64,000 nucleotides of DNA from positions 1 to 64,000 of IMG/VR virus record IMGVR_UViG_3300014720_000031; one strand, 5' to 3'. Made by a program: the position numbers and the translations under genes. The stretch is from a virus. The notes under the pieces are model-generated. The model had not been told where the DNA came from and searched no databases. It saw only the letters and a program-made list of their open reading frames with translations. Of this stretch, positions 2,287 to 62,882 are shown one piece after another (position 1 is the stretch's first letter; each line of letters opens with the position of its first letter).

Positions 2287-5200
2287 ATGAATTTTTCTGT
2301 TTATAATACAGAATCTCTTAATAACTTTCCAGATAGTGGAATTTATACTACGTATCGTTCATCATTAGACGGAACAACATTTACTTATGTTTTTACCCAA
2401 GCTTTGCATGTAGATGATCAGTTTGTTTATTTTCCAGTACAACAACATAGTTATATATCCAAAAATATTGGCACAATAGGAGTTTTGGATACCGAAGGCA
2501 ATCTCATCTCAAGAATAGAACCCAACATATCACCTCTTCCTAAAATACTAACATCTGATGAGAATTACATATATTTTTCAGTAGAAGGTTATCGCATAAA
2601 AAATAACGCAAATGGAGTAGCAAGAAATGTATTTAGATTCAATAAAAACACATATAAAATTGATTCAAATTTTTGTTTAGGTTCTTGGAATGGATGGACA
2701 CCATTCTGGATGACTAAACAAAACAATAAATACTATTTAGCAACAATTAGCAACGCAGCAAACACAGTTAATCAAATTTATCCTAATCTTAACGAAAATT
2801 CAACAGAAGGAATATACATAATTAAAAATAATATAAATACAGCAGATTTTGGAAGAATAAATACAAATGTTCCAAATAGAATTAAAGTAAGAAATGATGA
2901 TATTTATATTGCTGGAAGAACACCTAATTTAAATAATACAACAGATTATTCTAAAATATTTAAAATAAATAAAAAGGATATTGTAGATCCAAATTTTTAT
3001 CCTTTTATCGAAAGAATAAATAACACTAGTACTGCGGCTCCTGCAGGAGGATCAAGTTCAGATGTTTTTGATTTTGATTTTGACAACGAGGGCATATATA
3101 TCGGTGGAAATTTTCTAACTGTTGGAGGAGAGCAAAGAATAGGCGTTGCTAAGATAGATTATTCTGGAAACTTGATTAGCGGTTTTAACGCAAACTTTCC
3201 ATATAGTAACAATAGTAATATCTGCAGAGCAGTACTAACGACTGGTAGCGGATTGTTTATATGCGCCGCACCAACAGGAATTAATGGCGTATCTTTTAAT
3301 CAAAAAGTATTTAAACTTCATAATGATGGGTCAAGAAATGTTGCTTTTAGCGGAAGACAAACAATAAATTATGCAAGTGCTATGGCAATTTCTGGAAATT
3401 CATTATATGTAGGAAATGCGCTTAATAGTGCTTTTGCTGGCGTTACTTATGGGTTGGGCAAAATGAATACAGAAGATGGCGTTATTGATACTAATTTTAG
3501 CGTACAAGTTGGAACTAATTCTCCAATTAATAAAATATTAGTGAGTGGCGATAGTTTATATATATGTTCAGATTTTTTTAATCCTTATGAAAATTTTAAT
3601 AATGGATTACAGCATTTTGCTACTGGAGTAATTAAGCTTAGAGCTTCTGATGGTAATCCAGATACAGGATTTAAAATAAATTTTAATACTCATCTTACAC
3701 CTCCCACAATTCAAGGTATGTTTATAAAAGGTAATGAATTACATATTGTTGGCAATTTTACAGGAATAGAAGGAAAAACTATAAATAGTTATGCAGTAGT
3801 AGATACTACTAGTGGTAGATTATTAGATAATAAAAGCTATTTTGGCGCACAAAATACTAATAGAGCTATAGCTTATGATACAAGTAAAGATAGAATAATT
3901 ATATGCGGAGCATCATTATCACCATATTTTAGCGGATATAATTTTAATTATGACTCAAAAATTAATGTTTTTGATAATAATTTTAATCTTTTAAGTGGAA
4001 TACAATTTACAGGAGCAGGAGTAGGTGTTGGAAACGTAAAGGGATCAGCTTCTCTTAATATAGGTGTAGACGCACTTCATGATAACCAAATATTATTTAA
4101 TAATACAACTGGCTATATAACTTCTGGTGATACGACTACAGTTCAAACATTTATTAGATCCTTTAATATGGAAAATGGCAACATGTTAGATACAAGTAAT
4201 TTTTATCTTTCTGGAAATAACAGATTCACATCAGCTGTAAAATATAATAATGATTATTATTTTGGCGGAGGCTTCGATAGAGTATCGTCAGTTGGATTTA
4301 CTGGGACAAGAGCAGGAGTTGTTAAAACAAATATTAGTGGGATTATTGATCAATCGTTTAATCTAAATCTAACAGGCACAAGCACAGCTGTTGTTCGTAA
4401 TCTAAAAATAATAGATAATAATTTATATATACTTGGCAATAGCGCTTTAACAGGCGTTAGTGGCATAAGAACCAATAACTTTGTAAAATATAATCTTTTA
4501 AATCAAACTATAGATACGGGATTTAATAGTTTTTTAAATCGTTTTAGTAGAGAAATAAACAATGTTCACAATGATAACCAAAATAATCTTTATTTTGTCA
4601 TAACTACAACAAGTGCTACTAGTGCTCTAGAATATACAGGGGTAAATATTTTTGAACATTCTGGACATCTTTTTAAATTTAATAGCGGCTCATATGAGCC
4701 AAATATGAATTTTAGTAGCAAATATTTTATTCTATCTAATGATATATTAATAGATAATAATAAAATCTATGCGCCACTAAGAAATATGAATAAAGTTAGT
4801 GGCTCTACTATATATAAGATAAATAAAAAAACCAGAGAAATTTCTAATGCAAAAGTTTCTCTAATTAGCAGCGGGTCTCAACCAGTATATGGTATGTATG
4901 GTAATAGCACTTCTCTTTATGTGTGTGGAGCTTTTACTGGGGTAAATGGAATACCCAAAACAGGAGTATGTAAATTAAATAAGAGTGACCTTTCATTAGA
5001 CACTAGTTTTAATTTAAATTTTTATAATACAGGAATTCCTGGTGCAACTACCGTAGAATTGCTAGAGAAAGATAATTATTTATATATTAGAGGACAATTT
5101 AATAGGATTAACAATGACGCATATACAGGTATATGTAGAATAGATAAAACAAATGACACTCTTGACTCATCTTTTAAAATAAATTTTAGCGGTATAGAGT

Positions 5201-19574: not shown

Positions 19575-22500
19575 ATGAAATTAAATCGTCATGAGACAAT
19601 TAAGTATAAGAATTATGAATATTCTTGTTTAGAAAATCAATACTTAGATTTTTTAAAATTGTCAGGATATCTTTGCAGTGGTGAGCCATTAACCTCTGGT
19701 TTAAATAATTTATACAATCAATTTACTACATTTTCTCAACCATTAGTAAGTTATAATTATATAAAATATGGATTGTTTTCAAATCATAATAATTTAACTT
19801 TATATCAAAATACCGACTCTTCTTTCAATAAAGTAACTATCACCAACTCTGAAAGCGAAGATATAAATGGTTTATATTTAGGAACGACTTCTCCAAATAC
19901 TAATGGTAAATTTGAATATAATAAATCAAACAAAAGAATATTTTGGAGTGGAGATAGATGGGTTTTGACTAGTGGTGGTAGATTAGTTTACGAATCTGTT
20001 TCTAATGTCGAATATCCTTGGCTGGCAAGTTGGAGCGGCTCTGGTTCGCATTGCTGTTTTAATGATGGTATATTTAGTTCGACATCTGTATTTACGCCAA
20101 ATAAATTCTTGAATTTACAGATATATAGCGGAAAAGGATTTTTTAATTTAAAAATTCCTCCAACAGGAATTACTACTGGTATTTTTTTAAGTGGTCAATT
20201 AAAAACATTAAACTATGGATTTTCTCCTTGTATACAAAATAAAATTCCACTAATTATAAATTATTCTGGTAGAGCTGGTGCAGGATGGTTTCATACCGGA
20301 AAGGTTGATCAACCAATTTTATATACACAAAATTGCCCTTTAGGTCCAGGAAACGAAATAGTAAAAACTCAATTAAATTCAAATACTGACTATAATTTTA
20401 TACTAAGCGGAATGATAAATCTTAAAAATGGAATTAATTTTACTATTTCAAATCCTAATATTTTACCTATAGATATATTGACAGGAAATCCAAATAGTTC
20501 TTTTTATTTTACCCCAACATCAATATATGATGCAAATTGCTATTTTACAGGACAAGTTAGCGGTAGTGGAGAAAGTTTCGTTAATTTAATAAAGTCTCAA
20601 TGCATCGCAGAAGATCAAGCCGAAAACTTAAAATTATCTGGAATTAATGCTATTTCTTGTGATAATTGCGATTATACTTTTAGCATGAGCTTGCCATGCC
20701 CTCATAATTCTATAAATCATTTTGATGTAGATTCTTTATCTTATTTTCAAAGAGCGAGTATCATAGATTTTAGAATAAAAGAAGATATAAATACTTTTAT
20801 TATAAATTTAAAAAATCTTAAAATGTGGGATAAGTTTAAAAATATTTTCATATTAAGATCTGACTATAATAATAATGGCAGCTTTTTTTATGACTTAAAA
20901 AATCCTAATTTTACTGGTACATCTGTATCAACAGAAAAGACCATTTCAGGATATAAGTTTTTGTTTCAGTCTTCTAGATTAAATTTTCCAAATCATCCTA
21001 TAAATCTTACAGGAGCTAATTTTACTATATTTTCCATATTAGAAAATTATACTAGTCCTCCGCCAAATACTCCATATAGAGTTTTACTATCTTCAGAGGT
21101 TTATCAAACTAATGGTTTTAGATTTGGCACACAAGGAAGTTTAGGGAATATAAAACAATTTAACATATGGAGTACGGAAAGCGTTAGTACTTCTGGGCCA
21201 GTAGGTTTTAATGTAAGTACTTCAGATATAAATATTCCTAATAAGTATTCGTTTCTAACTGCTGGTGTGTTAAACAGCGGTAGCGGATTTATTCAAATAA
21301 ATAATAATTTACCCTTAATCTCTGGAGGAGAATATATAGAAAATTCTTTATCGATTACATCTATTCCAAAAATTGCTGGAGGTACGACGCCACTTAATAA
21401 TCGAATATCATTTTTTGCTATATCAAATGAAGACTTAACTAGATATCATAAAGATCTTCATCATCTTGCCAGCTCAACTATTGCTAGAAATATAGATATT
21501 CAAACAGGAATTGATCTTGGACCAGTCTCTTCGGGATTAACAAATGTATTTAAGCCAATTATATTCCAAACAGGGTTTTCAGAAAAACAAAACTTTATAA
21601 ATGCGTATGAAAATTCTTTATCTAAAGCTTTAAACGATGCATGCAATAATTGTTATTATTTAATAACTGGAGAATTTTATACAGGTGATCAAAAGAGAAA
21701 TTTATATAATTGGTCAAATGAATATTGCAATGTAACAGGTAGTGCAATATACAAATATGGAGAAGATCAATTAGGGATTGAAAGGCTCAAAGGAAATTTA
21801 TTAAATAATGTAATTAATAAATCAAATCTAGTAAAATGTCTTGAGGATGATCCTGGATGTTGCGAAGACGTCGGATGTGAAACTGCTTATATTGGTTTTG
21901 GTGGATCTACTGGATCTGGAAAAGAAAAACATGAAATTTTAGCTTTTAGTTTTCAAAATATATATGAAATAAGATCCTATAATAAAGATTTTTATTTAAG
22001 AGATTTAATTTTAATTGGAAGTTCTTATATTTCTGGCGATAATAACGCAGATGAAAATTCTATAGTTCTCACGGATGATCTTTTTAATCAAGGTGGTAAT
22101 TTCTATTTTAGGCAACCATTTAAATTAAGAAGTTGTGATGATAAATTACCTGCACCATTTAAAATTTATTTTCAAATGAGAATGACTCCAGGACAAGATG
22201 TGGGTATAGGTCGTGCGGATGGAATTAGCCTAATAATTCAATCAAAATCAGATACAGCCGGAGGAATTGGTGGAGGAATTGGATATTTTGGTATAGATAA
22301 AAGCATAGCAGTGTCATTTGATACATATAAAAATGATTTTGATATAAATAATAATCATATAGAATTAAATTTAAATGGAATAGTAGATAATCCAAGAAGA
22401 GTTGGTATCCCCTCTTTAGATCTAGCTGATGGACAAATAAAACATGTATGGGTAGATTATCTAGAAGGATATTTGAAAGTATATATTAGCAATAATAATA

Positions 22501-22583
22501 TCAAACCATCAAATCCAGTTTTAGAGAGAGATGGAATGAACTTCTGCGAGATATTTGATGGACGTTGTTCTGGTTTCTTATGA
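19575..22583 (+). CDS. Distal-tail structural protein with C-terminal L-type lectin domain
   Basis: A 1002-residue protein directly after the tape measure (2-nt gap), where distal tail proteins are coded. The first 700 residues are beta-rich, with many SG/TG turns and paired cysteines (GSHCCF, SCDNCDYTFS, DACNNCYY), and a concanavalin-like stretch at about 470-640. Residues about 770-990 look like a legume/L-type lectin: 'GIGRADGISLIIQ', 'GIGYFGIDKSIAVSFDTYKND' with the metal-site Asp, 'NNHIELNLNG' and 'IKHVWVDYLEGYLKVYIS' in the family order. Such domains bind sugars, often mannose. It ends with a small Cys-containing tail. Attachment to surface glycans is the likely role. The lectin call rests on motif order; the rest is unassigned. 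Confidence 0.65.
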   Translation: MKLNRHETIKYKNYEYSCLENQYLDFLKLSGYLCSGEPLTSGLNNLYNQFTTFSQPLVSYNYIKYGLFSNHNNLTLYQNTDSSFNKVTITNSESEDINGLYLGTTSPNTNGKFEYNKSNKRIFWSGDRWVLTSGGRLVYESVSNVEYPWLASWSGSGSHCCFNDGIFSSTSVFTPNKFLNLQIYSGKGFFNLKIPPTGITTGIFLSGQLKTLNYGFSPCIQNKIPLIINYSGRAGAGWFHTGKVDQPILYTQNCPLGPGNEIVKTQLNSNTDYNFILSGMINLKNGINFTISNPNILPIDILTGNPNSSFYFTPTSIYDANCYFTGQVSGSGESFVNLIKSQCIAEDQAENLKLSGINAISCDNCDYTFSMSLPCPHNSINHFDVDSLSYFQRASIIDFRIKEDINTFIINLKNLKMWDKFKNIFILRSDYNNNGSFFYDLKNPNFTGTSVSTEKTISGYKFLFQSSRLNFPNHPINLTGANFTIFSILENYTSPPPNTPYRVLLSSEVYQTNGFRFGTQGSLGNIKQFNIWSTESVSTSGPVGFNVSTSDINIPNKYSFLTAGVLNSGSGFIQINNNLPLISGGEYIENSLSITSIPKIAGGTTPLNNRISFFAISNEDLTRYHKDLHHLASSTIARNIDIQTGIDLGPVSSGLTNVFKPIIFQTGFSEKQNFINAYENSLSKALNDACNNCYYLITGEFYTGDQKRNLYNWSNEYCNVTGSAIYKYGEDQLGIERLKGNLLNNVINKSNLVKCLEDDPGCCEDVGCETAYIGFGGSTGSGKEKHEILAFSFQNIYEIRSYNKDFYLRDLILIGSSYISGDNNADENSIVLTDDLFNQGGNFYFRQPFKLRSCDDKLPAPFKIYFQMRMTPGQDVGIGRADGISLIIQSKSDTAGGIGGGIGYFGIDKSIAVSFDTYKNDFDINNNHIELNLNGIVDNPRRVGIPSLDLADGQIKHVWVDYLEGYLKVYISNNNIKPSNPVLERDGMNFCEIFDGRCSGFL

Positions 22584-46105: not shown

Positions 46106-48028
46106 CTAAAAGTTTTTAATGTCAAATTCAATTTTATCTTTTCCATTATGGAGATATGTAAGTACTTTCTGTGTTCCTACATATGGTATAAAGGCTATAT
46201 CAAAATATCCTGGACTATATTTATTTCCCTCGCACCATATTTGATTTTCCATTTGAGGCATAAATGGTATTACTTTATCAACGTAAGGATTTCCATCTAG
46301 AACTTCAAAATATTCTGGTTTTGTAGCTACATATAACACATGGTTTGGATAATTCTTTTTTATAGAACTAAAAAGGCTTGTACTTAAAAATACATCATTT
46401 TCATCTTCTGGTATTACATATAATATTCTTCTGCCAGAATCATCTTTATTCAAGAAATCTTCAAATTTAATTTTTTTATTTTTTTGATTTTCTTGCCAAG
46501 CCACCTGTTTAAAATAGTTTTCTATGTCCTGTCTTTTCATCCCTTTAGATAATTCTTGCATCCAATATTTATGCCCATCATCATTTTCATCTACATCTGG
46601 TCTTTTTAATATATTTGCATATAAACATTTTATCCACTCTGAGTTATCGTCTATATTTGGCACTTTAAAGAAAGGGTCTTGCTCTTCTGGTTCTATAGAA
46701 AAATTTTTATAATCTATAAATTCTGCATTATCTATAAACTCTTCAAATTTTTTTCCTATGATTTCTGAAGAATAATTATCTATAGTCCATTGTCTGGCGT
46801 TTTTACCCATTTCAATTCTTTTTTGAATTGGCATTTTCCATACTTTTTGTAATTGTTTTGCTATTGAATTTGGAGAGGTCGAAGCTTTTCTAAACTCTGT
46901 TCCGTGTTCTCTATATTCTGCCCACTCCAATGGGAGCGAGAAAGCTTCTTCTTCGCACATTTCTTCGCCACATGAATAGTTCGTCACAAGAGTTATAAGC
47001 TCGGTTAACTTTGCTTCTTGAATTGGTATTTCTTGGCCACCACTAGTAAATGGATGACAATATACATCCATTATATTATATACTTCATTTAATTGTTTTT
47101 CTGATACGCCTAAGCCAACGTTAGTTGTTATTTGGCCTTTTTCATTTTCACAAAATTTACATTTTATATCTTGGCCGATAAAATTTTTAACTTCATAATT
47201 TCCACAGGATTTACAAACGTAGGTCGTCAATATTTCATTCTTAGGGATGCCATATTCTTCGGCTAGTTTATAAATATTCCATCCTTCTCCCCAGTGAGTA
47301 TGCAAAAGCAAAAATGTGTTTTTTACTTCTGGATTTCTATTCTTCCATAATGCATATCCTTCTAATAAATTAGGCACGCTTTTTCTCAATTGATTTCTAA
47401 ATACAAATCCAACAATAAATGCATTTAAAGGTATATTAAAATTTATTCTTAAATTTTTTCTTTTTTCAATATCTAATTTAAAAAAATTAGTAACATCTAG
47501 TGGGCCGTGCATAGTTTTTACGTTCGAATGCCCAATGTCATTTAAAGCTTTTGTAGCAAAGTTACTCCATATCCAATAATTTTTCAACTTTGGAGCGCAT
47601 TTAATTGCAGATGGTAATATTGGAAGTGAATCTAAAGTCGTCCATATACAGGAAGTTATTTTCTTAAACCATGGCTTATCTATGCTGTAATCTACACCCC
47701 AAATATCTTGAACAGCTATATAAACATCTGGCTTTTCCTCTTGAATAACTTTATCAATGTTATATGCTCCATAACTAGCCATTCTAGATTGATTAGGATC
47801 TTTATTGAGCTGCTCTATCTCCTGTGGTGAGGAAGGAAGTGACCCTATAGATTTCCAAGGGGTTTTTTGAAGTTCTGGATTATTTTCCTGCATCCCACAA
47901 CAATAGTGGGATATATCGTATTTATTAGTTTTATATAAATAAGTTAGAAGTGCCTTAGATACCCTACCAAAACCTGTTTTGGCTAAAGCAAAATCAGAAT
48001 GATATAATAATTTTTTTTTTCTAGACAT
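46106..48028 (-). CDS. GT4-type glycosyltransferase, DUF4214 and N-terminal half of GT9
   Basis: A 640-residue fusion. Residues 1-450 are a GT-B glycosyltransferase of the GT4 group: 'SDFALAKTGFGRVSKALLTYLY' at the start, 'IVGFVFRNQLRKSVPNLLEGY', and 'VYCHPFTSGGQEIPIQEAKL' with the Glu pair that binds the donor. Two CxxC pairs (CKSCGN and CKFCEN, about residues 280-305) form a zinc knuckle inserted between the halves. Residues about 480-545 are a DUF4214-like segment (WIKCLYANILKRPDVDENDDGHKYW), and the end is the N-terminal half of GT9 (GRRILYVIPEDENDVFLSTSLFSSI). The gene ends in TAG in the middle of the GT9 fold. It probably adds a sugar to a host or phage glycan. Confidence 0.7.
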   Translation of the reverse strand: MSRKKKLLYHSDFALAKTGFGRVSKALLTYLYKTNKYDISHYCCGMQENNPELQKTPWKSIGSLPSSPQEIEQLNKDPNQSRMASYGAYNIDKVIQEEKPDVYIAVQDIWGVDYSIDKPWFKKITSCIWTTLDSLPILPSAIKCAPKLKNYWIWSNFATKALNDIGHSNVKTMHGPLDVTNFFKLDIEKRKNLRINFNIPLNAFIVGFVFRNQLRKSVPNLLEGYALWKNRNPEVKNTFLLLHTHWGEGWNIYKLAEEYGIPKNEILTTYVCKSCGNYEVKNFIGQDIKCKFCENEKGQITTNVGLGVSEKQLNEVYNIMDVYCHPFTSGGQEIPIQEAKLTELITLVTNYSCGEEMCEEEAFSLPLEWAEYREHGTEFRKASTSPNSIAKQLQKVWKMPIQKRIEMGKNARQWTIDNYSSEIIGKKFEEFIDNAEFIDYKNFSIEPEEQDPFFKVPNIDDNSEWIKCLYANILKRPDVDENDDGHKYWMQELSKGMKRQDIENYFKQVAWQENQKNKKIKFEDFLNKDDSGRRILYVIPEDENDVFLSTSLFSSIKKNYPNHVLYVATKPEYFEVLDGNPYVDKVIPFMPQMENQIWCEGNKYSPGYFDIAFIPYVGTQKVLTYLHNGKDKIEFDIKNF

Positions 48029-57102: not shown

Positions 57103-57113
57103 ATTTTACACTT
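57103..57113 (-). promoter_or_regulatory. GTGTAAA-type promoter, leaderless class
   Basis: AAGTGTAAAAT on the minus strand, a one-base variant of GTGTAAT. It overlaps the stop codon of the upstream nuclease gene and lies 5 nt from a TTG and 8 nt from a GTG start. The 8-nt spacing fits the class and supports the GTG. Confidence 0.4.
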
Positions 57114-57531
57114 AAATAATAAAAATTTGGAACTTTTCTTGTATATAGTCTAAAGAGACTTTTTTTAAATCATTTTCATATAATTGCAAGAATTTAAAAT
57201 TATTCATTTCAAGCCATTTTTCTTTTTTTACATCTCTTTTTATACTATTTAAATATTTTAATCTTGAGTCTCCGTGAAAAAATTTATTAAAGGATTCATG
57301 TTGATCGCCTTGTATCTCAACTGCAATTCTTTTTGTTGCATTTAATATATCAACTTTAAGCATTGTTCCATACACGGGGAACTCTTCATATACAATATGG
57401 TTTTTCCAGAATGGATAAAAAAACTGTTTAAAATTAAATTGAAGCTTACTTCTACTTTTACCTTCCCAATTTATAAGATTTTTTCTTACATTTTTATTAA
57501 CGAGTTTACCGTTAATATTTAATAGTCTCAT
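57112..57531 (-). CDS. Putative PD-(D/E)XK / VSR-like endonuclease
   Basis: A 139-residue protein. The motifs 'VYGTMLKVDILNATKRIAVEIQGDQHE' (residues about 75-100) give D-x(9-10)-E-x-Q-G-x-Q-H, the form of the very-short-patch-repair-like and related restriction-fold endonucleases. The end 'KWLEMNNFKFLQLYENDL' matches the typical last strand and helix with the phrase 'L-x-x-x-E-x-D-L'. It overlaps RecA by 4 nt (ATGA), so it is probably a DNA-repair or recombination nuclease. A homing-type nuclease is a less likely alternative because there is no intron near. Catalysis is inferred from the motif. Confidence 0.6.
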   Translation of the reverse strand: MRLLNINGKLVNKNVRKNLINWEGKSRSKLQFNFKQFFYPFWKNHIVYEEFPVYGTMLKVDILNATKRIAVEIQGDQHESFNKFFHGDSRLKYLNSIKRDVKKEKWLEMNNFKFLQLYENDLKKVSLDYIQEKFQIFII

Positions 57532-58673: not shown

Positions 58674-58995
58674 ATCTTATAAATTCTAGCAGGGTTTTAG
58701 GTTTTTGGCAAACATTTTTATCTTCACCAATTTTATTTTCTTTGATATTATATGTATTTTTATTTATTATTAATCTATTTTTTTTGTCTTCTATATTTAA
58801 AAAAGCCTTGCCATCTTCTGTTAAAAACCAAGCTAAGCTAGGCAAATTTAAATCTTTTAAGGATTTCCAGTAAGTTAAAGTCTTATATTTTTTTATTAAC
58901 TTTTGAGCTATTTTTATTTCTCTTGGCCAATTTGGTTTTGTTTTTATAAACTTTTTTACGATTAATTGGCATAATTTATGGTTTGTAATTTTCAA
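58657..58995 (-). CDS. Small basic protein of unknown function
   Basis: A 112-residue basic protein with an N-terminal helical half (KLCQLIVKKFIKTKPNWPREIKIAQKLIKKY) and short strands after it. The pattern 'W-P-R-E-I-x-I-A-x-K-L' recalls small phage proteins next to recombinases, but no family can be named. It overlaps Gmd by 20 nt at its start and RecA by 17 nt at its end, bridging the sugar cassette and the replication block in one operon. The high charge would allow DNA binding. Function unknown. Confidence 0.55.
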   Translation of the reverse strand: MKITNHKLCQLIVKKFIKTKPNWPREIKIAQKLIKKYKTLTYWKSLKDLNLPSLAWFLTEDGKAFLNIEDKKNRLIINKNTYNIKENKIGEDKNVCQKPKTLLEFIRYGKKT

Positions 58996-60034
58996 TATCC
59001 CATTTTACCATTCTTTCAACCAGATTGTCAAAGGAATTTTCAGGTTTCCATCCTAATTCGACTCTAGCTTTTGACGAATCTCCTAGTAGAAGATCTACTT
59101 CTGCTGGCCTATAAAAATTTGGATCGGTTTGTACTAATATTTTTGTTGCAATATTTCCATCTTTTAGTAAGTAATCTGGTAGAACATATAAAGTATTAAC
59201 GCCTTCTCCCGTCCATATTCCGTCTTTTATATTAGCATATGAAAATGATTTTTCTACAAATTCTTTTATAGAGTGAGTTTCTTCGGAAGATAAAATATAT
59301 TCCTTTGGCTTTTCTTGATTTAGCATAGTCCATATGCCTTTAACAAAATCTTCCGCGTGACTCCAATCTCTTTTAGATTCTAAATTTCCTAGTTTTATTG
59401 GTTCAAATGGTATTTTATTATCTATGGCATATTTAATTCTGGCTACTCCTTTTGTGATTTTTCTTGTGACAAATTCCTCTCCTCGCCTTTCGCTTTCATG
59501 GTTATAGAGTATACAGTGAATAGCATATAAATTATAAGACTCTCTAAATACTTTTGTTATATGTCTTGCTGACGCTTTCGCTGCTCCATATGGAGATCTT
59601 GGCTTTAATGGATGTTTTAAATCTTGCGGAGAATATTCTACATTGCCCATTTCCTCGCTAGAGCCAGCTGAATAAAATCTGCAAGATGGACAATTTTTTC
59701 TTATAGCTTCCAAACATCTAAGAACGCCTAAAGCTGTTACATCAAAAGTCTGCTCTGGCATAATCCAGCTTGCTCCAACAAAAGATTGTGCGGCGAAATT
59801 AATGAAATAATCTGGTTGTATGTTTTTTACCATATTCTCTAAAGAAGATCCATCAGATAAATCTCCATAAATTAATTTAAAATTTGGATGATTTATTATT
59901 TTAATTAAATTTGAATAATTTGGATTAGACGATCTTCTTATCATCCCATATACTATATGACCCAAAGATAGGCAGTACTCCGCCATATAAGATCCATCTT
60001 GACCGCTAACTCCTGTTATTATAATCTTTTTCAT
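58976..60034 (-). CDS. gmd: GDP-mannose 4,6-dehydratase
   Basis: A 352-residue SDR enzyme that turns GDP-D-mannose into GDP-4-keto-6-deoxy-D-mannose. The NADP motif is GVSGQDGSY (residues 8-16). The catalytic set is S126-E127 in SAGSSEEMG and Y149-x3-K153 in SPYGAAKAS. 'ILYNHESERRGEEFVTRKITKGVARI' is the Gmd fingerprint with the Arg that binds the nucleotide. The length is normal. It follows the ColD-like gene by 1 nt and is the last sugar gene of the cassette. Its product is the shared substrate for fucose, perosamine and colitose routes; the neighbours point to colitose. Confidence 0.95.
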   Translation of the reverse strand: MKKIIITGVSGQDGSYMAEYCLSLGHIVYGMIRRSSNPNYSNLIKIINHPNFKLIYGDLSDGSSLENMVKNIQPDYFINFAAQSFVGASWIMPEQTFDVTALGVLRCLEAIRKNCPSCRFYSAGSSEEMGNVEYSPQDLKHPLKPRSPYGAAKASARHITKVFRESYNLYAIHCILYNHESERRGEEFVTRKITKGVARIKYAIDNKIPFEPIKLGNLESKRDWSHAEDFVKGIWTMLNQEKPKEYILSSEETHSIKEFVEKSFSYANIKDGIWTGEGVNTLYVLPDYLLKDGNIATKILVQTDPNFYRPAEVDLLLGDSSKARVELGWKPENSFDNLVERMVKWDIENYKP

Positions 60035-60035
60035 C

Positions 60036-61190
60036 TTAAAGATTATTGATATAATTCAACAATTTATCTAAATTATTTGAAGAGACTTTACTATGTAGTC
60101 CAACATAAAAACCATTATTATTTAATACTTCACTATTTTTATAATGTTTATAGTTAGCGTATTTTTTAAAACAAGTTTGTCTTAAAAGATTACCAGAGAT
60201 AATTGGCCGTGTTTCGATGCCATTCTTTTTGCAAAAGTCTAAAGCTTTTATTTTATCTTTTTTGTTTTTACATATAACAGGAATGCAAAATGGAACATGA
60301 ATTCTATTATCAAAATTTTTTGGTAAGGAGGCTCTTTGGGTATATTTATGTATATAATTATTATAAATATTAATTCTTTTATCTATATAAAATTTTATTC
60401 TTTTAAAATCTAATAATCCTATCAACGCATTGATATTAGTATTCCTAAAGTTATTACCTAATAAATAGAAATCAAATCTTGAATCTACATTTTTATTTAA
60501 ATACTTTTGATTATCTTTTACGCTTCTTGTCATTCCGTGGTTTCTTGCCATTAGAAAATAATCGTATTCTTTATCTGAATTAGTGAATATAAATCCACCT
60601 TCTACGCTTTGCAGTTGGTGGCCAAAATAAGTACTTGTCGTGGAAGTAAAGAAAGAGCTCACGTTTTTATTTTTGAAAGAACCAAATGTATTTTCACAAT
60701 TATCTAACATAAATTTTACTTTATATTTTTTTTCTAGATATATAATTTTGCCTATATCAGGAGTATAACCCAATAGACTTGTAATAAAAACACATGATAT
60801 ATTTTTAGATTTTTTAATTAATAAATCTTCTAATTTGTTCAAATCCATTGACCAATCCTCAAGATTAATATCAACAAAATTAGGAGTAAAGCCTTCTCTT
60901 ATAAAAGGCGAAACGGAGGTAACCCATGTCGTAGATGGAAATACTATAATATTTTTGTTCTTCGAATATTGATTATCTTTAAGATACATAGCTAACAATG
61001 TATTTGCAAGAGAACCATTTGCGACAAATACTGCGTATTTTACTCCAACATATTCGGCCATTGTTTTTTCAAAAAGCGAAACCTGATCGCCCATAGTCCA
61101 CATATCTTTTTTCTTTAAGAAAAACTTACATATATTAAATTTATCTTTTAATGTAAAATTAGATTCGTTTAGATTCCACATGTTTTTCAT
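60036..61190 (-). CDS. PLP-dependent 3-dehydratase, ColD-like (His variant of the DegT fold)
   Basis: A 384-residue DegT/DnrJ-type PLP protein. The start 'DMWTMGDQVSLFEKTMAEYVGVKYAVFVANGSLANTLL' and 'LDNCENTFGS' (D163) are family parts. The residue that normally holds PLP is Lys, six places before the EGG. Here that position is His 191 (TYFGHQLQSVEGG). In ColD, the GDP-4-keto-6-deoxymannose 3-dehydratase, and in the CDP-sugar enzyme RfbH, the same place holds His and the enzyme removes the C3 hydroxyl. 'ETRPIISGNLLRQTCFKKY' also fits these dehydratases. Together with Gmd and the Fcl/ColC-like neighbour, ColD is the best call; a plain aminotransferase is unlikely. Confidence 0.82.
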   Translation of the reverse strand: MKNMWNLNESNFTLKDKFNICKFFLKKKDMWTMGDQVSLFEKTMAEYVGVKYAVFVANGSLANTLLAMYLKDNQYSKNKNIIVFPSTTWVTSVSPFIREGFTPNFVDINLEDWSMDLNKLEDLLIKKSKNISCVFITSLLGYTPDIGKIIYLEKKYKVKFMLDNCENTFGSFKNKNVSSFFTSTTSTYFGHQLQSVEGGFIFTNSDKEYDYFLMARNHGMTRSVKDNQKYLNKNVDSRFDFYLLGNNFRNTNINALIGLLDFKRIKFYIDKRINIYNNYIHKYTQRASLPKNFDNRIHVPFCIPVICKNKKDKIKALDFCKKNGIETRPIISGNLLRQTCFKKYANYKHYKNSEVLNNNGFYVGLHSKVSSNNLDKLLNYINNL

Positions 61191-62073
61191 AAGTTCTTTT
61201 TATTCCTTCATAGAGCGGGGTAAATTTAAATCCATTTAAAATACTAATTAATTTGGCTGACGAGGCATCTTTTCTATATTGACCATCTGGCTTTAATATA
61301 TCCCATTGTATACTAATATTGTTTGCATTGCAAGCTCTTAGTGCTATTTCTGCTATTTCTTTTATGCTTTTAACTTCATCGGTGCATACATTGCAACTTT
61401 CGTTTATATTATTTTCAACAAAATTAAAAATAACTTTTGCTAAATCGTCTGCATACATAAATTGTCTTAAAGGCTTCCCTGTGCCCATTAGTTGTATATT
61501 TGTGTTATTATTTTTTGCATTATAAATTTTATTTAATAAACTAGATAAAAAATGAGCCTTATCGCCTTCAAAATGATCATATTCGGAATATAGATTGCAC
61601 GGAGTTAGATATGTATAATTTTTATTATATTGTTTATTATAAGCTTCAATTTGAACAGCCATACATCTTTTAGCATATCCATAAGCAAAATTTGTTTCCG
61701 TTGGTGGTCCTTTGTGTAAGAGGCTCTCGATCATTGGGTACTCATTGTCATCTACTTTATCTGGATAAATACATGTACTTAATATACCTATAAATTGATT
61801 AACACTTACTTCATGTGCATATTTTAATACATTTGTATTAATCATAATATTTTCTTCAAAAAATTGAACGGGGTTTTTGATATTGTCCATAATCCCACCA
61901 ACTTTTGCTGCCAAATGAATTACTTTCTGTGGTCTAATATCATGCATTAATTCTAAGACTTCTTTTGGATTTTTTAAATTACAATCTTTACTAGATATAA
62001 AAATTCCATTTGGTAAATATTTGATTAGATGCTTGCCAACCATACTAGATCCGCCTGTTATTAAAATTTTCAT
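61159..62073 (-). CDS. GDP-sugar epimerase/reductase (Fcl or ColC-like)
   Basis: A 304-residue SDR enzyme of the GDP-L-fucose synthase family. 'MKILITGGSSMVGKHLI' is the NADP motif. 'GILSTCIYPD' (S99, C101) and 'FAYGYAKRCM' (Y131-x3-K135) supply the catalytic residues. 'KPDGQYRKDASS' near the end matches the fingerprint P-x-G-x-x-RK-x-x-D. The family does C5 (and C3) epimerisation and C4 reduction. Fcl yields GDP-L-fucose from the keto-deoxymannose, while ColC yields GDP-L-colitose from the dideoxy sugar. With a ColD-like enzyme next door, overlapping by 32 nt, ColC is more likely. The two families cannot be told apart by eye. Confidence 0.85.
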   Translation of the reverse strand: MKILITGGSSMVGKHLIKYLPNGIFISSKDCNLKNPKEVLELMHDIRPQKVIHLAAKVGGIMDNIKNPVQFFEENIMINTNVLKYAHEVSVNQFIGILSTCIYPDKVDDNEYPMIESLLHKGPPTETNFAYGYAKRCMAVQIEAYNKQYNKNYTYLTPCNLYSEYDHFEGDKAHFLSSLLNKIYNAKNNNTNIQLMGTGKPLRQFMYADDLAKVIFNFVENNINESCNVCTDEVKSIKEIAEIALRACNANNISIQWDILKPDGQYRKDASSAKLISILNGFKFTPLYEGIKRTYEKHVESKRI

Positions 62074-62882
62074 ATGTTATTATATATAGTATTTTCTGCT
62101 AATAGATATTGCTTGGCTCTTGTAAAGTTTTCTATTATAGCTGGAATCCTTTTGGAATATTCATGATCACTTATATTATTTAATATTTCATCTAATTTAT
62201 CTAAAGAATCAAATTGGATTATCCCATTGATATCAAAGAAATTGCCTATACTTGAGCATCCATAGTAAATCGGTATTGTGCCAGTCACGAAGCAGTCAAT
62301 AAGTTTTTCTGTAAACCAAAAATTTTTTATACTATTTTCTATTACGATCTGAAACTTAAAATCTTTTAAAACTTCTATTTTTGATATTATTTGTTTATAA
62401 CCATTTCCAAATAGTTCAAATTTATTTTTAAATCTTTCTATGCATTTCATTCTTAGGTTATGTCCAGTTAAAAAATTTTTATTAGAAGTTATCATGCATA
62501 TCATTCTGCTTTTTTCATAAATATTAAAATCTTTTTTATCAATCCAACAGCCTCCGTAAGGTATAAAAACAGAATTTGGTAATTTTAGAATATCTTCATC
62601 GTGAGAATATATTTTATAGAATAGATTATAATTATTTTTCACATATGAATATTTTTCTGGACAAAGCTCTTGGGGTTCTATTAGCCATGCAATATCTTTT
62701 TTATTGTTTCTTCTGGATGCAGTTATAAAATTATCTGTATATATGATTATATCTTCATCAGTATAGTTATTTGATCGATCCCATTCGATCTTATCACTAA
62801 ATTGAATTGGGGGCATTGGGTTGTTGCTAAATATGCAATGAGAAAAGCTAGAATCTTTTATAAAAATTTTTTTCGGTATCAT
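62070..62882 (-). CDS. GT10 fucosyltransferase-like glycosyltransferase
   Basis: A 270-residue protein. The GT10 signature of alpha-1,3-fucosyltransferases is visible at residues about 172-215: 'LKDFKFQIVIENS', 'FWFTEKLIDCFVTGTIPIYYGCSSIGNFF', which carries the E-N and the T-E-K-L residues that hold GDP-fucose. The N-terminal half (residues 1-130) is a divergent acceptor-binding half with 'IAWLIEPQELCPEKYSYV'. L-colitose is 3-deoxy-L-fucose, so this enzyme is a natural user of the sugar made by its neighbours. It overlaps the carbamoyltransferase and the Fcl/ColC gene by 4 nt each. The acceptor is unknown. Confidence 0.8.
   Translation of the reverse strand: MIPKKIFIKDSSFSHCIFSNNPMPPIQFSDKIEWDRSNNYTDEDIIIYTDNFITASRRNNKKDIAWLIEPQELCPEKYSYVKNNYNLFYKIYSHDEDILKLPNSVFIPYGGCWIDKKDFNIYEKSRMICMITSNKNFLTGHNLRMKCIERFKNKFELFGNGYKQIISKIEVLKDFKFQIVIENSIKNFWFTEKLIDCFVTGTIPIYYGCSSIGNFFDINGIIQFDSLDKLDEILNNISDHEYSKRIPAIIENFTRAKQYLLAENTIYNNI

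Follow-up and report, generated by a model that had tools for sequence, protein, structure and literature searches.

Can a phage make and transfer L-colitose, that is 3-deoxy-fucose, a rare sugar found in the O-antigen of some Gram-negative bacteria? The question is raised by a block of sugar genes in IMG/VR record IMGVR_UViG_3300014720_000031, a record of 66,880 bases from an uncultured phage, of which bases 1–64000 were analysed as one stretch (hereafter, the window). An earlier note on this DNA had proposed that three contiguous genes, which encode a Gmd, a DegT-fold enzyme resembling ColD, and an epimerase/reductase, form a GDP-L-colitose pathway with a GT10-like transferase next to it. 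Gene content, gene order, protein families, active-site residues and genomic linkage can all be read from the sequence, and together they indicate that the phage probably encodes this pathway along with transferases that would use GDP-L-colitose. The gene assignments themselves are secure. The product is very likely to be some GDP-3,6-dideoxy sugar; GDP-L-colitose in particular is the best supported identity and a probable one. In the proposed route, Gmd would dehydrate host GDP-mannose to GDP-4-keto-6-deoxymannose. The ColD-type enzyme, working with pyridoxamine phosphate (PMP) and glutamate and with His191 replacing the usual lysine, would then strip the C3 hydroxyl, and an enzyme with the GDP-fucose-synthase fold would take the ColC role, inverting C5 and reducing C4 to yield GDP-L-colitose. 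A GT11 and/or GT10 enzyme would move colitose to an acceptor and a carbamoyltransferase may carbamoylate the glycan. The enzymatic steps, their product and what the phage gains from it are predictions; most probably the cassette alters a surface glycan of the host while infection is under way.

The DegT protein is almost certainly a ColD-type 3-dehydratase, judging from its sequence, predicted fold and phylogeny. It matches Pfam PF01041 (E = 8e-49), and its top phmmer matches in the PDB are E. coli ColD (E = 1.7e-39 and 139 bits for 2gms). His191, which the earlier note had placed at the position of the lysine that binds pyridoxal phosphate (PLP), does fall in the alignment column of ColD His188, the residue mutated in H188 variants. 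That column is invariant in a 73-sequence alignment, and His occupies the cofactor position in all 84 DegT proteins that score above 150 bits in a second set of loci. From 73 related sequences AlphaFold gave a model with a mean pLDDT of 96, whose nine top PDB folds are all ColD, with TM values of 0.86–0.89. A tree of 92 rows splits all 77 His-type enzymes from Lys-type aminotransferases (support 100) and separates the ColD side from RfbH/E1 (99 and 98), so that the window protein does not fall among the 4-aminotransferases, the placement by which the earlier note would have considered its proposal refuted. An ordinary PLP-dependent 4-aminotransferase of the perosamine synthase kind, which would yield a nitrogen-containing sugar, is scarcely credible here: it shares the fold family, and perosamine synthase also appears among fold matches of the model, but the active-site lysine is absent, the His that replaces it is invariant in both sequence sets, and the tree split is fully supported.

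RfbH/E1 of the CDP-3,6-dideoxyhexose pathway is, like the window enzyme, a His-type DegT 3-dehydratase. E1 holds a [2Fe-2S] cluster with four cysteines and acts together with a reductase, and this four-cysteine site distinguishes it from ColD (PMC8987622). Three alignment columns have Cys throughout the RfbH-type sequences but in no member of the ColD set, and the window enzyme likewise lacks these E1-specific cysteines. Because the top folds are ColD, the tree separates the two groups and the E1-specific cysteines are absent, ColD-type rather than E1 chemistry is expected. E1/RfbH-type His-DegT proteins with the Fe-S cysteines were seen in other phages that are related to the window phage by ColD, namely L095 (2033–5469), L097, L100, L116, L123, L127, L154 and L159. 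After the E1-type gene of L095 come a gene like those for sugar 4,6-dehydratases and then two genes that resemble halves of a thiamine pyrophosphate (transketolase-like) enzyme, which suggests a second dideoxy sugar, possibly branched-chain, in that phage.

For the first step, Pfam, NCBIfam and PDB searches agree with the earlier note in assigning Gmd to the GDP-mannose 4,6-dehydratase family. Its closest PDB entries are GDP-mannose 4,6-dehydratases, with 2z1m (GDP-D-mannose dehydratase) on top (E = 1.3e-86), and homologues with 57–78% identity occur in most related phage records. The NCBIfam gmd score of 366 bits does not reach the equivalog cut-off of 415, as would be expected for a divergent member. 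Low identity to characterised enzymes raises the alternative that the three enzymes make another GDP-3,6-dideoxy sugar, for example a D-sugar that keeps its C5 configuration, or an analogue based on a heptose, and several ColD relatives in Campylobacter and Helicobacter lie beside low-score Gmd homologues and divergent Fcl-like enzymes, which suggests other substrates there. Such a product is improbable for the window: its Gmd is far nearer to true GDP-mannose dehydratases (E = 1e-86) than to heptose 4,6-dehydratase in the PDB (E = 4e-22), and the epimerase/reductase keeps all of its residues for epimerisation (C101, H174) and reduction (Y131, K135).

The epimerase/reductase had been described as Fcl/ColC-like; membership of the Fcl fold family stands and orthology with ColC does not. 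The protein matches NCBIfam Fcl (E = 8e-57) with 193 bits, short of the equivalog cut-off of 500, and human GDP-L-fucose synthase heads its PDB matches (E = 2e-63). Its sequence identity is 39% with human FX, against 33% with E. coli ColC and 29% with E. coli Fcl, and the four catalytic residues just named are equivalent to C109, Y136, K140 and H179 of E. coli Fcl (C101, Y131, K135 and H174, respectively). In a tree with eukaryotic sequences, the window enzyme and other phage enzymes form one clade that is sister to eukaryotic GDP-fucose synthase (100/99); the eukaryotes are represented by two sequences (human and Naegleria) and some branches are long, which makes the precise ancestry of the phage clade provisional. 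In a first tree without eukaryotes the window enzyme had grouped with ColC (100/98), a result that vanished once human and Naegleria sequences were added and that probably reflects long-branch attraction; with these sequences in the tree, forcing the phage clade together with bacterial ColC is rejected (p-AU 5e-5). The Tyr in PCNLYSEYDHF was also considered as standing in for the catalytic residue His179 of Fcl, a replacement found in E. coli ColC, and was discarded: its column corresponds to E. coli residue 170, which is variable in Fcl, and the true counterpart of His179 is H174.

Gene linkage offers the strongest evidence that this phage epimerase/reductase is a dedicated partner of a 3-dehydratase; the product itself is a prediction. 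With the window epimerase/reductase family as the sole query in viral contigs, 80 loci were recovered and their fetched flanks inspected. A His-type DegT gene is present in 77 of these loci and Gmd in 64; by their Fe-S cysteines (four-column version), 71 loci have a ColD-type enzyme and six have the E1-type only. His-type DegT is absent from the fetched flanks of the other three, two of which end near a contig end. A control query with bacterial-type Fcl found Gmd at a comparable 66 of 80 loci and His-type DegT at only 10. The difference persists after clustering at 70% identity with a stricter motif count (25/30 versus 3/22 in the control; Fisher p = 6e-7). It is because of this near-obligate pairing with His-type DegT enzymes that the ColC step is assigned to the epimerase/reductase. 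In six contigs (L298, L311, L316, L340, L353 and L361) a window-type epimerase/reductase and Gmd are encoded close to an E1-type enzyme, with no sign of ColD.

The wider gene set recurs as well. Carbamoyltransferase, GT10, epimerase/reductase and ColD genes occur together in L111, which has T4-like replication genes as judged by eye, and in L120, in which GT11, GT10, carbamoyltransferase, epimerase/reductase, ColD and Gmd all run in one direction. A set common to different phage types suggests a functional module. Close to the colitose-type cassette of L120, two genes were recognised by eye (2372–4003), one resembling a CMP-sugar cytidylyltransferase and the other a NeuB-type synthase, which suggests that this phage makes a nonulosonic acid too.

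Candidate transferases lie next to the pathway genes. The GT10-like protein, which the earlier note had as the next gene upstream, has a Glyco_transf_10 domain (PF00852, E = 2.5e-8, 34.2 bits against a cut-off of 23.9) with the donor-site run ENSIKNFWFTEKLIDCF. FUT9 is its sequence match in the PDB (E = 1e-7), and alpha1,3-fucosyltransferases head its fold matches, the best being 2nzx (E = 2.8e-7) with a modest TM of only about 0.56. GT10 relatives are found beside ColD in other phages. Colitose is a plausible donor sugar for the GT10 enzyme. The GT11 protein of the record is 31% identical to the product of an E. coli O55 gene annotated as alpha1,2-fucosyltransferase, which we take to be WbgN, a characterised colitosyltransferase of the GT11 family. 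WbgN transfers from GDP-L-colitose and GDP-L-fucose, and FUT2 also takes both donors (PMC11987014).

Several observations weigh against GDP-L-colitose as the product. Characterised members of the epimerase/reductase lineage make GDP-L-fucose and the grouping with ColC is rejected, which means that GDP-fucose could replace GDP-L-colitose as product or accompany it. The window DegT lies in a phage-only clade with a stem of 1.25, beside rather than inside the E. coli ColD clade, and this clade is only ~25–29% identical to bacterial ColD; the long stem and low identity leave room for altered specificity. In many phages whose ColD belongs to this clade, Gmd and ColD are present with no such epimerase/reductase detected (e.g., L104, L119, L124, L133, L135 and L136), so that colitose need not be the outcome wherever ColD occurs. 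Among 30 phage records with a relative of the window ColD, most have a strong Gmd match, about half have an epimerase/reductase match and several have one of the two only; some of these records are fragments. In the window phage the set is complete. Alternatively, the pathway might be a branch point at which Gmd and the fucose-synthase-type enzyme mainly make GDP-L-fucose for GT10 and GT11, with part of the flux diverted by ColD, so that both L-fucose and L-colitose result. The sister relationship with eukaryotic GDP-fucose synthase and the identity to human FX are consistent with this, as are the fucosyltransferase nature of the GT10 and GT11 families, the acceptance of both donors by WbgN and FUT2 (PMC11987014), and the report of Gmd, GDP-fucose synthase and fucosyltransferases in cyanophage S-SCSM1 (PMC9602691). 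However, a branch point would predict that the epimerase/reductase often occurs away from His-type DegT, which is seen in only the three loci mentioned above, and we consider it unlikely. A dedicated route to GDP-L-colitose is still the probable reading.

The carbamoyltransferase, which is full-length, has TobZ as its top PDB match (E = 9e-39). A phage carbamoyltransferase of the same family acts on 5-hydroxymethylcytosine (PMC8670742), which raises the idea that the sugar and carbamoyl group decorate phage DNA, as hypermodified bases, and not a surface glycan. In that study, carbamoylation of 5-hydroxymethylcytosine co-occurs with PF00303 thymidylate-synthase homologues, while contigs without the modification flank their carbamoyltransferases with genes like glycosyltransferases (PMC8670742). 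PF00303, the partner of hydroxymethylcytosine-acting carbamoyltransferases, was not found in the 66.9-kb record, in which ThyX is present instead, and DNA decoration is therefore very improbable. Modification of a host surface glycan is the most probable use of the cassette. The rewriting of the O-antigen, the exclusion of rivals and the decoration of the virion that the earlier note had suggested are possible outcomes.

The four genes that were first noted are contiguous on the minus strand, with overlaps of 4 to 32 nt or a 1-nt spacing, and the cluster is larger than had been described because it extends upstream from the carbamoyltransferase through GT11 and GT25 to GT4 (see table). All eight genes of the block overlap or abut, and its downstream end overlaps a 112-aa gene and the RecA-like gene, so that it looks like a single transcription unit. 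As the earlier note had stated for ManB and ManC, neither an NTP_transferase (ManC; PF00483) nor a PGM/PMM (ManB; PF02878) domain was found in the 66,880-base record; GDP-mannose would therefore have to come from the host. Of the further genes of an O-antigen cluster, no flippase (wzx) or polymerase (wzy) was seen among the annotated genes, although no search by name was made for them.

Genes of the predicted colitose block, in window coordinates unless given as record coordinates
Gene product	Position	Strand	Remarks
Gmd, GDP-mannose 4,6-dehydratase, 352 aa	58976..60034	-	predicted step 1; PF16363 E = 8e-107
ColD-type PMP-dependent 3-dehydratase, 384 aa	60036..61190	-	predicted step 2; His191 at PLP-lysine position
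GDP-fucose-synthase-fold epimerase/reductase, 304 aa	61159..62073	-	predicted step 3: C5 epimerisation and C4 reduction (ColC role)
GT10-like glycosyltransferase, 270 aa	62070..62882	-	candidate colitosyl- or fucosyltransferase; PF00852
TobZ/NodU-type O-carbamoyltransferase, 525 aa	62879..64000, on to record base 64456	-	PF16861 E = 5e-57, PF02543 E = 1e-20
GT11	64441-65220 of record	same run	beyond window edge
GT25	65217-65933 of record	same run	beyond window edge
GT4	65912-66772 of record	same run	beyond window edge

The record is a phage according to its tail and replication genes. The window encodes a tape measure protein of 2578 aa, minor tail proteins, a DNA polymerase III alpha subunit, a primase, and DnaB-like and RecA-like proteins, as well as ThyX and nucleases; no tRNA was found in it. 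No close cultured relative was found: among the phage-collection matches listed, identities for the RecA-like protein, polymerase and helicase are at most ~31%. The window DegT gene occurs at 100% identity in two further IMG/VR contigs with the same gene order, and linkage of ColD with the RecA-like gene is kept across many related contigs, which rules out a chimeric assembly. Many of the related phage contigs also keep, next to the RecA-like gene, a 139-aa protein (57112–57531 in the window) that has no Pfam match and looks by eye like a small endonuclease. Elsewhere in the window, a 1002-aa protein encoded next to the tape measure gene (19575–22583) has a C-terminal legume-type lectin domain (PF00139, E = 2e-19) and may serve in the virion to bind glycans. 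Away from the sugar operon (46106–48028), another gene encodes a protein of 640 aa that combines a glycosyltransferase group 1 domain with a DUF4214 domain.

Similar gene sets in dozens of other phage contigs appear to be undescribed, and titles and abstract openings in the open literature that mentions colitose and phage report no phage-encoded colitose pathway. Phages may thus be an overlooked source of 3,6-dideoxy sugars. We propose more tentatively that they could represent a large independent 3,6-dideoxyhexose reservoir, with a ColD subfamily that is phage-only among the sequences considered here, an epimerase/reductase drawn from the fucose-synthase lineage shared with eukaryotes rather than from bacterial ColC, and, in some phages, a CDP-type E1 enzyme as well; the trait would have been assembled in phages, passed among unrelated types such as siphovirus-like and T4-like ones, and retained because it recodes the surface sugars of the infected host. 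A colitose-making phage could alter the receptor that rival phages or grazers meet, and phages may ferry such cassettes between hosts. Genes of cultured cyanophages that are known as 'aminotransferase' or 'epimerase' become a testable pathway, and the epimerase/reductase, which appears to be specialised for a 3-deoxy substrate, could be useful for GDP-colitose production.

The colitose genes of E. coli O111 and O55 (gmd, colC, colD) have the same predicted chemistry, adjacent colC and colD, His188 in ColD and, in O55, a GT11 gene. In contrast to the phage block, they lie on the chromosome in O-antigen clusters that also contain manB/manC, wzx and wzy and in which no carbamoyltransferase or GT10 was seen; their ColD is just 27–28% identical to the window enzyme and their ColC is of another lineage. 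The cultured Synechococcus phages ACG-2014f and S-CAM7 have contiguous genes for Gmd, an epimerase/reductase, a His-type ColD and GT11. These genes are annotated merely as hypothetical, aminotransferase or epimerase, they have no adjoining GT10, their epimerase/reductase does not group with that of the window and their ColD is ~32% identical to the window ColD. Sugar genes of chloroviruses are reportedly covered by a published review. Cyanophage S-SCSM1 resembles the window phage in its virus-encoded Gmd, GDP-fucose synthase and fucosyltransferases (PMC9602691), whereas no 3-dehydratase step is described for these viral GDP-fucose genes in the reports consulted. Eukaryotic GDP-L-fucose synthase (FX/TSTA3) is the sister lineage of the phage epimerase/reductase and has the same catalytic residues; the phage clade differs in that its genes nearly always have a His-type 3-dehydratase gene as neighbour.

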